Source of the DNA: Jeotgalicoccus saudimassiliensis
GTDB taxonomy: Bacteria > Bacillota > Bacilli > Staphylococcales > Salinicoccaceae
DNA: 64,000 nt
NCBI RefSeq assembly: GCF_000756715.1
Contig: NZ_CCSE01000001.1
Span: 124,001 to 188,000 of the forward strand
Reading direction: 5' to 3'
The stretch's first letter is position 1; each line of letters begins with the position of its first letter. Positions 21,430-26,224 of the stretch are shown piece by piece. Position numbers and translations under genes: made by a program. Under the pieces are notes generated by a model that did no database searches, was not told the DNA's origin, and saw only the letters and a program-made list of their open reading frames with translations.

Positions 21430-22419
21430 ATGAAGGCTATATACCATGAAGGTGTGCAGAGTCTCGAAGGGATTCAGTACGGTGAAGTCGAACAGGATAA
21501 AATCGACGACGGCGAAGTCGTCGTGAAAATGAAGACTGCCGGATTAAATCACAGGGATTTATTTATCCCGGCGAGGCATAACGAAAATGATCCGCCGATT
21601 GTACTCGGTTCGGATGGTGCAGGGGTTGTGGCGCAGATTGGTGCCGGCGTCAAAAATGTTAAAGTCGGCGACGAAGTCATTATCAATCCGTCGCTCGGCT
21701 GGGAGAAAAACAGTGCGGTGCCGCCTGAAGGGTTTGAAATTACGGGCTTTCCGTTTAACGGCACTTTCGGAGAGTACATGACGATTCCGGCAGAGAATGC
21801 CGTACCGAAACCGGCGCATTTAAACTGGGAGGAAGCAGGTGTGCTCGCATTATCTGCGATGACAGCTTACCGTGCGCTGTTTACACGCGGTCAGCTTGAA
21901 GCGGGGCAGACGGTACTGATTCCGGGTGCAACCGGCGGTGCGGGGACGTTTCTCATGCAGTTTGCCAAAGCTGCAGGTGCGACTGTCTATATCACTTCCC
22001 GTTCTGAAGAAAAACGTCAGGAAGCGCTGAAACTCGGTGCCGATAAAGCGATTGATTCAGAACGTGACTGGCACGAACAGCTCGACGGGAAAAAAGTCGA
22101 TTTAGTCATTGAAAGCGTCGGCGCGGCAACGTTCAACAAATCTGTTGACCAGCTGAAGCGCGGCGGCACTTTAGTGGCGTTCGGAGCTTCTGCAGGAGAC
22201 ACCGTCGATTTTGATCTGCGCAAATTTTTCTACGGTCAGTTTAATCTGCTCGGTTCGACGATGGCGAGTACAGATGAGCTTAACGACATGCTTGATTTCA
22301 TTGAAAAACATAACATTAAACCGGTAATGGACAAATCTTATAAAATGGAAGATTTTAAAGAGGCGTTCGACCGTCTCGACAAAGCCGGCATGATGGGGAA
22401 AATTGCATTTACTTTATAA
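21430..22419 (+). CDS. zinc-type alcohol dehydrogenase / quinone oxidoreductase
   Basis: A 329-residue medium-chain dehydrogenase. The N-terminal GroES-like part contains G-L-N-H-R-D-L-F and a V-L-G-S-D-G-A-G-V-V segment. The nucleotide fold follows with V-L-I-P-G-A-T-G-G-A-G-T-F near residues 156-166. The structural zinc cysteines are absent, so this fits the quinone oxidoreductase (zeta-crystallin) type using NADPH. AAGGAGGTT precedes the ATG. Co-transcribed with the 20997 gene. Confidence 0.85.
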   Translation: MKAIYHEGVQSLEGIQYGEVEQDKIDDGEVVVKMKTAGLNHRDLFIPARHNENDPPIVLGSDGAGVVAQIGAGVKNVKVGDEVIINPSLGWEKNSAVPPEGFEITGFPFNGTFGEYMTIPAENAVPKPAHLNWEEAGVLALSAMTAYRALFTRGQLEAGQTVLIPGATGGAGTFLMQFAKAAGATVYITSRSEEKRQEALKLGADKAIDSERDWHEQLDGKKVDLVIESVGAATFNKSVDQLKRGGTLVAFGASAGDTVDFDLRKFFYGQFNLLGSTMASTDELNDMLDFIEKHNIKPVMDKSYKMEDFKEAFDRLDKAGMMGKIAFTL

Positions 22420-22444: not shown

Positions 22445-22473
22445 TTGCAAATTGTAAGAAGATAATTTATGAT
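22445..22473 (+). promoter_or_regulatory. sigma-A type promoter for the exporter leader
   Basis: TTGCAA at 22445-22450 and TATGAT at 22468-22473 with a 17-bp spacer, 38 bases before the leader ATG. The transcript would start near 22480, covering the leader ORF and attenuator. Confidence 0.65.
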
Positions 22474-22511
22474 TGATTTGTGACAAAAATATGAACAGGA
22501 GGTAAGGCGTT

Positions 22512-22592
22512 ATGAAATTTCTACACAACAAAACTACACAGATTACAATTTCACAACCAAATATCGGTACCTCTCTAATTTCACAACTATAA
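22512..22592 (+). CDS. 26-residue leader peptide of the ABC exporter operon
   Basis: A short ORF with a strong ribosome site (AGGAGGTAAGG, 22497-22507) before ATG 22512 and a TAA at 22590. The product begins M-K-F-L-H-N-K-T-T-Q and ends S-L-I-S-Q-L, rich in Thr, Ser, Ile and Gln. It has no membrane or catalytic features; its likely role is regulatory. Codons 20-22 (acc tct cta) contain the octamer CCTCTCTA that can pair with the 5' arm of the terminator downstream. This is the architecture of the bmrB leader in Bacillus subtilis, though the peptide itself differs. Confidence 0.7.
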   Translation: MKFLHNKTTQITISQPNIGTSLISQL

Positions 22593-22648
22593 ATTATTCG
22601 GGATAATTATATATTTTGAAAATGGAGAGGCATATCCTCTCTATTTTT
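22570..22648 (+). promoter_or_regulatory. attenuator: antiterminator / Rho-independent terminator switch
   Basis: The terminator is TGGAGAGG (22623-22630), loop CATAT, CCTCTCTA (22636-22643), then T5. An identical CCTCTCTA lies at 22570-22577 within the leader ORF, so the 5' arm can pair equally with either copy (8 bp, one G-U). The two structures exclude each other. If a ribosome stalls or is absent early in the leader, the upstream copy is free and transcription can continue into the exporter genes. A ribosome finishing translation covers part of the upstream copy and favours termination. Confidence 0.7.
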
Positions 22649-22760
22649 ATGCCTGTTTTTAGCGTGCACATTAATAGTGCGCGCTTTTTTGCGCTTTTAC
22701 GAGGGGATACGGACGGAAAAACGAATAATTCAAAGGGGAACTTTGGGAAAAAGGTGAATT

Positions 22761-24494
22761 ATGTTTGGTTACATCAGGAAAATCAGCTGGTATATTTTCT
22801 CGAACAAAAAGCGTTATGCATTTATCGTTATCTTTTTACTGATTGCGAACGTACTCGATATTATTCCGCCGCAGCTGATCGGCCGGACTATCGATTTAAT
22901 TAACAACGGTGAACTGACGCAGGAAATGACGCGCAATATATTAATTATTTTTGCAGCAGTCATTATTTTATCCTACACGGTCAGTTACTGGTGGGGCTAT
23001 CTGCTCTTTGAAGGGGCAATTAAAATCGAATCCATATTACGCAGCAGGCTGATGCGTAAATTTCTGCTCCTGTCGCCGAGCTTTTATGAGCGGAGCAAGA
23101 CCGGTGACTTAATGGCGAAAGCAACGAATGATCTCAGAACAGTCAATATGGCGACGGGATTCGGAATTATTACACTGCTCGATGCCACGACATTTTTACT
23201 GACAATCGTCCTGGTGATGGGCTTTACAATCAGCTGGCAGCTGACGTTCTTTGCGCTCATACCGCTGCCGCTCCTTGCGATTATTGAACAGCGTCTCGGC
23301 AAAATGATTAACAAAAGGCATAAATCATCACAGGAAGCATTCGGTGTGATGAACGATGCGGTGCTGGAAGTCGTCGAAGGTGTCAGACTGACGCGCAGCT
23401 ACGTGCAGGAAGACGCTGAAAATAACAGATTCAAACGTCTGACGGATAACTATTTAAATAAATTTATGAAAGTCGAGAAACTCGATGCTTTCTTTCAGCC
23501 GCTGACGATTATCGTCGTGTCATCCAGTATTGCGATTTCGTTCAGCTACGGTGCAGTACTCGTTAACAGCGGCGCGATTACCGTCGGTGAACTGATTACA
23601 TTTAATGTGTATCTGAACATGCTGATCTGGCCGATGTTTGCGCTCGGCATGCTGTTTAACATTATGGAGCGCGGCAATGCGTCATACGACCGGATCCAGC
23701 ATGTGCTTGATGAGACCGATGATTTAAAAGCAGGCGGGGAAGAGACGGTAAAAGAGACGAATTTCAACTTTAACGAAGTGTCGTTTAAATATCCGACCGG
23801 TAAACACAACAGTCTGGAAAATATAACTATTGAACTGAACAAAGGCGAAACGCTCGGAATTGTCGGCAGGACCGGCAGCGGTAAGTCGACGTTTATCAAG
23901 CAGCTGTTAAAAATTTATCCGGAAGGGACCGGCGATTTAGTTATCGACGGCATTAATATTTCAAATCTTAACCGGGAGAAACTGCGCGAGAAGCTCGGGT
24001 ACGTTTCCCAGGAAAACATTTTGTTTTCGCGCACGGTCAGAGAAAATATTATGTTCGGGAAGCCGGATGCGACAGAAGCGGAAATGATGGAAGCCATCCG
24101 TCTGAGTGCGTTCGATGAAGATTTAAAACGCATGCCGGAAGGTCTCGATACGCTCGTCGGAGAAAAAGGGGTGTCGTTAAGCGGCGGACAGAAACAACGC
24201 ATTTCAATTGCGCGCAGTCTGATCAGACAGCCCGATATTTTAATTCTGGACGATGCGTTAAGCGCCGTCGATGCACGGACTGAACAGAGAATTATTAACC
24301 ATATTAAAAACAACCGTCTGGGCAAAACGACGATTATTATTACGCACCGCCTGTCAGCAGTGCATCATGCCGATAAAATTATCGTGCTCGATAACGGCAG
24401 AATAGTTGAATCCGGCACACATGAGCAGCTGTCTGAAGGCAGCGGCTGGTATTCGGCACAAAACGATTATTTCATTACAGGGGGTGAGTCGTAA
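22761..24494 (+). CDS. bmrC: heterodimeric ABC multidrug exporter subunit, BmrC/YheI-like
   Basis: A 577-residue half-transporter: six membrane helices (about residues 1-310) then an ATPase domain. Walker A is G-R-T-G-S-G-K-S-T (about 372-380), the signature is L-S-G-G-Q-K-Q-R (about 472-479), and Walker B is I-L-I-L-D-D-A-L-S-A-V-D. An Asp rather than Glu follows the Walker B Asp, so this is the degenerate (non-hydrolysing) site of an asymmetric heterodimer. From memory the sequence resembles Bacillus BmrC throughout (P-P-Q-L-I-G-R-T-I-D, R-T-G-D-L-M-A). The start has AAGGTGA upstream. It overlaps the next gene by one base. Confidence 0.85.
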   Translation: MFGYIRKISWYIFSNKKRYAFIVIFLLIANVLDIIPPQLIGRTIDLINNGELTQEMTRNILIIFAAVIILSYTVSYWWGYLLFEGAIKIESILRSRLMRKFLLLSPSFYERSKTGDLMAKATNDLRTVNMATGFGIITLLDATTFLLTIVLVMGFTISWQLTFFALIPLPLLAIIEQRLGKMINKRHKSSQEAFGVMNDAVLEVVEGVRLTRSYVQEDAENNRFKRLTDNYLNKFMKVEKLDAFFQPLTIIVVSSSIAISFSYGAVLVNSGAITVGELITFNVYLNMLIWPMFALGMLFNIMERGNASYDRIQHVLDETDDLKAGGEETVKETNFNFNEVSFKYPTGKHNSLENITIELNKGETLGIVGRTGSGKSTFIKQLLKIYPEGTGDLVIDGINISNLNREKLREKLGYVSQENILFSRTVRENIMFGKPDATEAEMMEAIRLSAFDEDLKRMPEGLDTLVGEKGVSLSGGQKQRISIARSLIRQPDILILDDALSAVDARTEQRIINHIKNNRLGKTTIIITHRLSAVHHADKIIVLDNGRIVESGTHEQLSEGSGWYSAQNDYFITGGES

Positions 24495-26224
24495 TGAAGG
24501 AAATGCTCAGATTACTGCCGTACGTTAAGCAGTACAAAGGAATGTTTTCAGGCGGCATTTTACTCATGATATTAATGGTCGGCTTTGAACTCGCCGGCCC
24601 GCTGATCGCAGCAGCGATTATCGATAACCATATTAAACTTGGAGAGGGCAATATTTTAATCCGGCCGATTTTATATCTCATTGCACTGTTTCTTGCGATA
24701 AAACTCATGCACGCAGCGGCGAGCTACTTTGCACAGATTGTGCTCATATCCGCAGGAACGAAAGCGATTCAGCAGATGCGTCTCGACGTCTTTAAACACG
24801 TCCAGCAACTGCCGATCCGGTATTTTGATAATCTGCCGGCAGGTAAAGTGGTGGCGAGAATTACGAATGATACTGAGTCCATACTCCAGCTGTTTGCCTC
24901 GGTTATTCCGATGTTTATGGTCAGTATATTAACGATTTTCAGCATTACGGCAATCGTCTTTTACGTTCACATGTGGACAGGGATTGTCATGCTGCTGTTT
25001 ATTCCGGTAATTATTATATGGGGTGTGCTGTATAAAAAATATTCCAATGAAAACAATCATATTAAACGCGAAAGAAACAGCGATATGAACGCCATGATTA
25101 ATGAATCGATCAATGGGATGCCGATCATTCAGGTGTTCAACCGCGAAGACCAGATCAAAGAAGAGTTTGAAAAAATCAACAGTGAATACTACGACAGTGC
25201 AAGCAGTCTCGTGAAACTGGAAAGTCTGACAGGTGAAAACCTGGCGAACTCAATCCGTTCACTCGTGTTTGCGATACTGGTGTATATATTTGCAGGCGCA
25301 TTTTTAAACGGTACCGGTGCACTGACAGTCGGGCTGATGTATCTGCTCGTCGATTACATTACGAGATTCTTCAACCCGCTGTTTAACATTATTAATCAGC
25401 TCAGCATATTCGAGCAGGCGCGTGTCGCAGCGGACAAAGTGCTGGAAATGCTCGATGCGGAACCTGAAAAAGAAGAAGGGCACGCACTCGATACGTTCAG
25501 CGGCAACATTTCATTTAGAAACGTCAGCTTTTCTTATGACGGTAAACGGGATGTACTGAAAAATATTAATATCGATGCGGCTCAGGGTGAAACGATTGCG
25601 CTTGTCGGCCACACAGGTTCCGGCAAAAGTTCGATTATTAATCTTCTCATGCGCTTTTATGATCCGGGGAACGGCGCGATTTACTTCGATGAATCCGATA
25701 CGAAGCAGATTGATAAACAGAGTCTCCGCCGTTTTATGTCGATTGTGCTGCAGGATCCGTTTATATACAGCGGGACATTGCTGTATAACGTCAGGCTGAA
25801 CAATGAGAACATTACGGAAAGAGAAGTATTAAAAGCGCTGGAAGATGTCGGGGCGGGACCGCTTATCGCGCGTCTTCCGGACGGCATTCACTCGGAATTA
25901 GCAGAGCGGGGTGCGACGCTGTCACTCGGGGAAAGACAGCTGATTTCATTTGCCCGGGCACTCGCGTTTAATCCGACAGTGCTCGTGCTCGATGAAGCAA
26001 CCAGCAATATCGACTCGGAAACTGAACAGCTGATTCAGTACGCAATGAACGTCGTGTCAAAAGACCGGACAACATTTATTATTGCGCACAGACTGTCGAC
26101 GATTCAGCATGCGGATCAAATTGTACTGCTTGAAAATGGTGAAATTAAAGAACAGGGCAATCATGATTCGTTAATGGAACTTGGCAAAGACTATTACAAA
26201 ATGTATGAAATGCAGATGGGATGA
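24494..26224 (+). CDS. bmrD: heterodimeric ABC multidrug exporter subunit, BmrD/YheH-like
   Basis: A 576-residue partner half-transporter: six membrane helices, then an ATPase domain with Walker A G-H-T-G-S-G-K-S-S (about 374-382) and Walker B V-L-V-L-D-E-A-T-S-N-I-D. It carries the canonical catalytic Glu, while its signature motif is altered to L-S-L-G-E-R-Q. This pairing (one canonical Glu, one Asp) is typical of BmrCD and LmrCD type heterodimers that export drugs. Translation is coupled through the TAATG overlap with bmrC. Expression is probably governed by the attenuator at 22570-22648. Confidence 0.85.
   Translation: MKEMLRLLPYVKQYKGMFSGGILLMILMVGFELAGPLIAAAIIDNHIKLGEGNILIRPILYLIALFLAIKLMHAAASYFAQIVLISAGTKAIQQMRLDVFKHVQQLPIRYFDNLPAGKVVARITNDTESILQLFASVIPMFMVSILTIFSITAIVFYVHMWTGIVMLLFIPVIIIWGVLYKKYSNENNHIKRERNSDMNAMINESINGMPIIQVFNREDQIKEEFEKINSEYYDSASSLVKLESLTGENLANSIRSLVFAILVYIFAGAFLNGTGALTVGLMYLLVDYITRFFNPLFNIINQLSIFEQARVAADKVLEMLDAEPEKEEGHALDTFSGNISFRNVSFSYDGKRDVLKNINIDAAQGETIALVGHTGSGKSSIINLLMRFYDPGNGAIYFDESDTKQIDKQSLRRFMSIVLQDPFIYSGTLLYNVRLNNENITEREVLKALEDVGAGPLIARLPDGIHSELAERGATLSLGERQLISFARALAFNPTVLVLDEATSNIDSETEQLIQYAMNVVSKDRTTFIIAHRLSTIQHADQIVLLENGEIKEQGNHDSLMELGKDYYKMYEMQMG

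Follow-up and report, generated by a model that had tools for sequence, protein, structure and literature searches.

We propose that the leader preceding the bmrCD drug exporter genes of Jeotgalicoccus saudimassiliensis is a ribosome-mediated transcription attenuator composed of four RNA arms, namely the Shine-Dalgarno sequence (SD) of a short leader ORF, an arm within this ORF and the two arms of an intrinsic terminator (T1). On the basis of conservation and of folding with modelled ribosomes, we consider this reading very probable. The quantity sensed would be the position of the ribosome rather than the sequence of the peptide, and the same pairing logic is found before bmrC in most of the Bacilli sampled.

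A predicted four-arm leader upstream of bmrCD

The window, i.e. the whole stretch of 64,000 nucleotides that was analysed (contig NZ_CCSE01000001.1), carries the following features in the region of interest (22445–22760) and directly downstream.

22445–22473, forward strand: plausible sigma-A-type promoter, TTGCAA-17 nt-TATGAT (pattern scan, 9/12 matches)
22497–22503, forward strand: leader SD, AGGAGGT, arm 1 (sequence)
22498–22504, forward strand: GGAGGTA of arm 1, complementary to TACCTCT at 22568–22574 (sequence)
22512 (ATG) to 22592 (TAA), forward strand: leader ORF of 26 codons, MKFLHNKTTQITISQPNIGTSLISQL (strong SD, conservation; predicted translation)
22570–22577, forward strand: arm 2, CCTCTCTA, within codons 20–22 of the leader ORF
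22617–22649, forward strand: T1, intrinsic terminator of 14 bp with a T-rich tail (folding, sequence)
22623–22630, forward strand: arm 3, TGGAGAGG, 5' arm of T1
22636–22643, forward strand: arm 4, CCTCTCTA, 3' arm of T1 and repeat of arm 2
22661–22685, forward strand: T2, second terminator-like hairpin of 9 bp with a T6 tail (sequence, conservation, folding)
22761–24494, forward strand: bmrC (yheI) orthologue, ABC exporter half (best solved-structure match YheI chain, 610 bits)
24494–26224, forward strand: bmrD (yheH) orthologue, second exporter half (best solved-structure match YheH chain, 543 bits)

A preliminary description of this DNA had listed the promoter, the SD, the 26-codon ORF, the terminator and the octamer duplicated in codons 20–22. 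All of these are read in the sequence at the places given; T2 and the role of the SD as an anti-antiterminator arm had been missed. The promoter assignment is plausible, and the equivalent position in L008 and L009 holds TTGAAA/TTGCAT-17-TATGAT. T1 starts 25 nt past the leader stop codon and thus lies outside the leader ORF, unlike in the published BmrB arrangement. The duplication shared by arms 2 and 4 extends beyond the octamer to 12 nt at 92% (CCTCTCTAATTT/CCTCTCTATTTT). The octamer CCTCTCTA occurs three times on the two strands of the 64 kb, against 0.84 expected, and two of the three occurrences are those of the leader, 66 nt apart. The pairing of the SD with the ORF is weak and short (-9.8 kcal/mol). 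Compared with dinucleotide shuffles, the helices of the window taken alone are not striking (p ~0.12 for SD:ORF, ~0.10 for ORF:downstream); their significance comes from conservation and not from single-genome statistics. A search of the leader against Rfam returned no family at gathering score, and only two sub-threshold chance matches.

The assignment of the downstream genes to a BmrC/BmrD-type exporter, already suggested in the preliminary description, is borne out by the solved-structure search, in which the two BmrCD chains are the best matches and outscore other bacterial exporters by a wide margin. Furthermore, a BmrC query run against Bacillus genomes matches the yheI locus best. Relative to the solved YheH chain, BmrD of the window is about 100 residues short, and the alignment begins at its residue 57 and at residue 147 of the chain; the N-terminal/extracellular insertion present in B. 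subtilis BmrD may be missing.

Proposed mechanism and ribosome-position folding

We infer that the leader ORF is translated. When translation proceeds normally, arm 2 would be masked by the ribosome once it reaches the end of the ORF, so that arms 3 and 4 pair as T1 and transcription stops. If the leader is not translated, arm 1 would pair with arm 2, leaving arm 3 free and again allowing T1 to form; it is because arm 2 would pair with the SD when no ribosome is present, T1 then forming, that the SD is counted as the fourth arm. A ribosome stalled near the start, as proposed here for drugs acting on the 50S subunit by analogy with bmrB, would mask the SD and expose arm 2, which could then pair with arm 3. 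With the 2:3 helix formed, T1 would fail and bmrCD would be transcribed, so that such drugs would act as inducers.

Nascent RNA was folded with the ribosome footprint forced single-stranded, equilibrium folding and a block-shaped footprint being crude stand-ins for co-transcriptional events, and a mutually exclusive antiterminator and anti-antiterminator were predicted around T1. With arm 4 half transcribed and the P-site at codon 14 or earlier, the 2:3 helix had a probability of 0.83–0.99 at the codons tabulated. For most P-site positions between codons 1 and 14, P(T1) did not exceed 0.13, the exceptions being isolated, footprint-dependent values of up to 0.8 at codons 9–13. From codon 16 onward, P(T1) was 0.89–0.95, and the switch threshold remained steady at codons 15–18 for footprints ranging from -12/+12 to -20/+20. 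When T1 was complete, the RNA without ribosome gave a P(1:2) of 0.81 and a P(T1) of 0.92; with the start codon occupied by a ribosome, 1:2 was blocked and P(T1) fell to ~0.3. By prediction, transcription is terminated both when the leader is untranslated and when it is translated to the end, readthrough being restricted to the case of a ribosome held close to the start. This simulates the earlier proposal that a drug-slowed ribosome would leave the upstream octamer free, and the general idea of a translation-sensing transcription attenuator with mutually exclusive hairpins is supported by the ribosome-mask folding together with conservation.

The second hairpin complicates this scheme. T2 folds with a probability of about 0.97–1.0 in every ribosome state, and readthrough past it is therefore unaccounted for by the simple model. 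In the Salinicoccus-like relatives L012, L013 and L015, folding predicts that arm 4, once freed, invades T2 (CUCUAUUU/AAAUGGAG); Jeotgalicoccus has a counterpart, a CUAUU/AAUAG match, which the energy model rates as too weak. The possible explanations are a leaky T2, an interaction between arm 4 and T2 that counts in vivo, or an incomplete model.

Conservation within Jeotgalicoccus

The leader ORF is intact, with a strong SD, in all eight Jeotgalicoccus genomes, and its indels are multiples of three, in contrast to those located 3' of the stop codon, which are not codon-sized. Inside this otherwise variable ORF, ACCTCT[C/G]TA is nearly invariant across the eight genomes. T1 and T2 are nearly invariant as well, T2 varying only in its loop. 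The conservation of the octamers in the genus is what the preliminary description had anticipated for an alignment of relatives; the compensatory changes that it had also envisaged are not seen, variation being scarce: T1 displays only G.U/A-U changes, and one uncompensated change affects arm 2 in L008/L009. For L008, no switch was predicted by folding.

Conserved pairing and unrelated peptides across Bacilli

Of 50 Staphylococcales loci, 47 have a leader of such design upstream of bmrC, and the design recurs at this place in most other Bacilli sampled, the B. subtilis group included. The three Staphylococcales loci without it belong to one genus, g4 (L038, L039, L040), in which the bmrC orthologue has no leader ORF and is preceded by a hairpin only, an apparent loss of the switch. 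In the largest Staphylococcaceae genus sampled, no bmrC was found at the cut-off used. The leader peptides are unrelated between genera and the pairing is retained, as illustrated by the 1:2 (GGAGGUA/UACCUCU) and 2:3 (CCUCUCUA/UGGAGAGG) helices of the window, by example helices from g10 (AGGAGGAAAAUA/UAUUUUCCUCCU) and g14 (GGUAGUGA/UCACUACC), and by the helices of L093 (GGUUACG/CGUAACC with GUAACCUGCCUA/UAGCGCAGGUUAC) and L080 (GGAGGUACG/CGUACCUGCC with GUCCGUACCUG/CAGGUGUGGAC).

Co-evolution was assessed on 94 leaders in 41 genus-level groups, in which the automated choice of leader was sometimes doubtful in distant families, wrong-looking cases being removed manually ahead of scoring and four leaders being set by hand. 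Pairing of the SD with its own ORF averaged -15.1 kcal/mol, against -11.3 kcal/mol for swapped partners (z -10.5), and pairing of the ORF with its own downstream region likewise exceeded that with cross-genus swapped partners (z -6.2); GC differences between species could inflate this swap test, an effect that two shuffle controls address. In the dinucleotide-shuffle test, Fisher p values were 1.7e-9 (SD x ORF) and 8e-5 (ORF x downstream). The mean switch score was 0.339, against 0.036 (sd 0.025) for codon-shuffled ORFs, and 19 groups exceeded a score of 0.4, where 2.6 were expected. For groups g14 and f2, the prediction of a 2:3 helix is not clear. Taken from sequence comparison, these results support the view that the pairing has co-evolved across the leaders.

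The same data bear on other explanations. Many resistance-gene leaders use peptide-specific stalling, of the erm/cat type, in which the nascent peptide and the drug arrest the ribosome at one fixed codon. We regard this as unlikely here, although single species may still use it, since peptides unrelated between genera keep no arrest motif, and since stalls at most positions among codons 1–14 give an equal outcome in folding. Still less probable is the view that the hairpins are merely terminators of the upstream oxidoreductase gene (21430–22419) and that the leader ORF is spurious. Paired strong hairpins are indeed common between genes and the arm statistics of the window alone are unremarkable; however, a promoter-like site separates the oxidoreductase gene from the hairpins, the ORF and its strong SD are preserved in every relative, indels being codon-sized, the arrangement persists where the upstream genes differ (L008, L009 and other genera), and the switch is abolished by codon shuffling. 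An amino-acid-starvation attenuator of the trp/leu type, with regulatory codons sensing charged tRNA, would share the arm logic of a leader ORF and alternative hairpins, but it is barely credible for a leader without a run of any one amino acid, with peptides so unrelated between genera that no codon is kept, and with drug exporter genes downstream.

Two further elements were observed close to bmrC. In the Salinicoccus-like genus g5 (L010–L015), the bmrC SD is covered by a hairpin-like element, TCCCTGG..CAGGGTGG, within the last 60 nt before bmrC. This element has an alternative pairing partner further upstream and could add a second layer of control, at the level of translation. In many Bacilli outside the Staphylococcales, a second short ORF of ~17–26 codons, often with its own SD, ends ~20–48 nt before bmrC. 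It has a conserved C-terminus (..KESLESG*/..KEKLEGG*) with synonymous codon changes, and it was present in 31/31 Bacillus-type loci checked, e.g. L131 (the yheI upstream region), L064–L089 and L103–L111. This ORF is absent from the window, and no published description of it was found in a limited literature search.

The B. subtilis leader reconsidered

In B. subtilis, attenuation of bmrB-bmrCD by ribosome-targeting drugs has been proven experimentally, and the terminator was proven by mutation by Reilman and colleagues (PMC4191407). Blocking leader translation lowered expression and abolished induction by lincomycin (PMC4191407), both effects being what the 1:2 arm predicts. The published leader, BmrB, is a 53-residue ORF starting with GTG, with the terminator inside it (PMC4191407). 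The start-codon mutant of BmrB also carried 5'-UTR changes directed against alternative starts and ribosome sites (PMC4191407), and because of these additional changes it cannot separate BmrB from another candidate. Genome G552 (L131) of the B. subtilis group codes for a protein that matches the YheI chain at 100% identity across 569 residues. Here, the annotated BmrB frame (GTG, 53 codons) overlaps, in a different frame, a 23-codon ATG ORF, MPRNLRVYQTVSYWRGKPFVLFS, with the SD GGAAGGAGGGTTTGCT. The ATG and the SD of this ORF are present in 11/11 B. subtilis-group genomes (23–32 codons). The BmrB start codon is absent in four of the 11, and the BmrB frame is shortened to 15–42 codons in six (L133, L134, L135, L138, L139, L140). 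Substitutions counted by codon position amount to 7/8/7 sites and favour neither of the two frames.

The 23-codon ORF contains GGCAAACC, complementary to its own SD spacer GGTTTGC(T), and its GCGCGG pairs with CCGCGC 3' of the stop codon, further arms reaching the terminator. A terminator inside a translated BmrB ORF is mechanistically awkward; a 23-codon ORF ending 61 nt upstream of it poses no such difficulty. In folding simulations with an early-stalled ribosome, the terminator 5' arm was paired upstream with a probability of 0.95, versus 0.41 without ribosome; late ribosome positions also favoured upstream pairing (0.68–0.78), and the simulation lends the switch a support that is only partly convincing. 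The annotated BmrB may be a misidentified leader, the 23-codon ORF being the actual one.

It can be hypothesised, and we lean modestly towards this view, that these leaders form a class-wide sensor in which the pairing logic is conserved and the peptide and nucleotide sequences are not, with the SD as the first arm across Bacilli and, in B. subtilis, the 23-codon ORF in place of BmrB as the true leader of a 1:2/2:3/3:4/4:5/terminator cascade. What was observed for bmrB in a single species would then exemplify a general and predictable way in which Bacilli sense drugs intrinsically, and pairing logic could reveal such leaders in cases that escape homology searches with peptide or RNA. The leader ORF of a textbook-type case would, in addition, receive a correction that can be tested.

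Comparison with known systems

The leader of the E. coli trp operon follows a 1:2/2:3/3:4 logic in which the stall is set by Trp codons. The Jeotgalicoccus leader shares this arm logic and differs from it in that arm 1 is the SD itself. The toiL uORF of E. coli topAI shows how one uORF can sense several drug classes via different stall positions, but its targets are a ribosome-binding site and Rho instead of an intrinsic terminator (PMC12121999). The proposed logic is also that of the vmlR leader of B. subtilis, in which a drug-stalled uORF prevents an anti-antiterminator from forming, so that an antiterminator blocks the terminator; unlike the present leader, it comprises a tripeptide uORF and an SD reported to be single-stranded, and it controls an ABCF gene (PMC9226507). 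It also has an extra hairpin hiding the vmlR SD (PMC9226507), whereas a bmrC SD-hiding hairpin, considered as a second layer in the window, was not significant (z -0.85).

The nearest relative is bmrB-bmrCD itself, with an orthologous exporter and a leader ORF, terminator and alternative hairpins (PMC4191407). Induction by 50S drugs and the need for leader translation are proven there (PMC4191407); the Jeotgalicoccus leader is known from sequence and folding. BmrB contains its terminator (PMC4191407), whereas the 26-codon ORF of Jeotgalicoccus ends before T1. As had been noted previously, its peptide shows no resemblance to BmrB when compared by eye. The terminator outside the ORF and the unrelated peptide point to a variant of the bmrB-type attenuator and not to an independent staphylococcal invention. 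The preliminary description had considered an independently evolved version, a suggestion at odds with the finding that, across Bacilli and in the B. subtilis group too, bmrC is preceded by leaders that share this arm logic while their peptides are unrelated. Moreover, the 23-codon ATG ORF of B. subtilis, with its strong SD and self-complementary arm, matches the Jeotgalicoccus architecture, and if it is taken as the leader, the B. subtilis terminator also lies outside the leader ORF. Among bmrB-type attenuators, the Jeotgalicoccus leader is a local version with a different terminator placement and an unrelated peptide.
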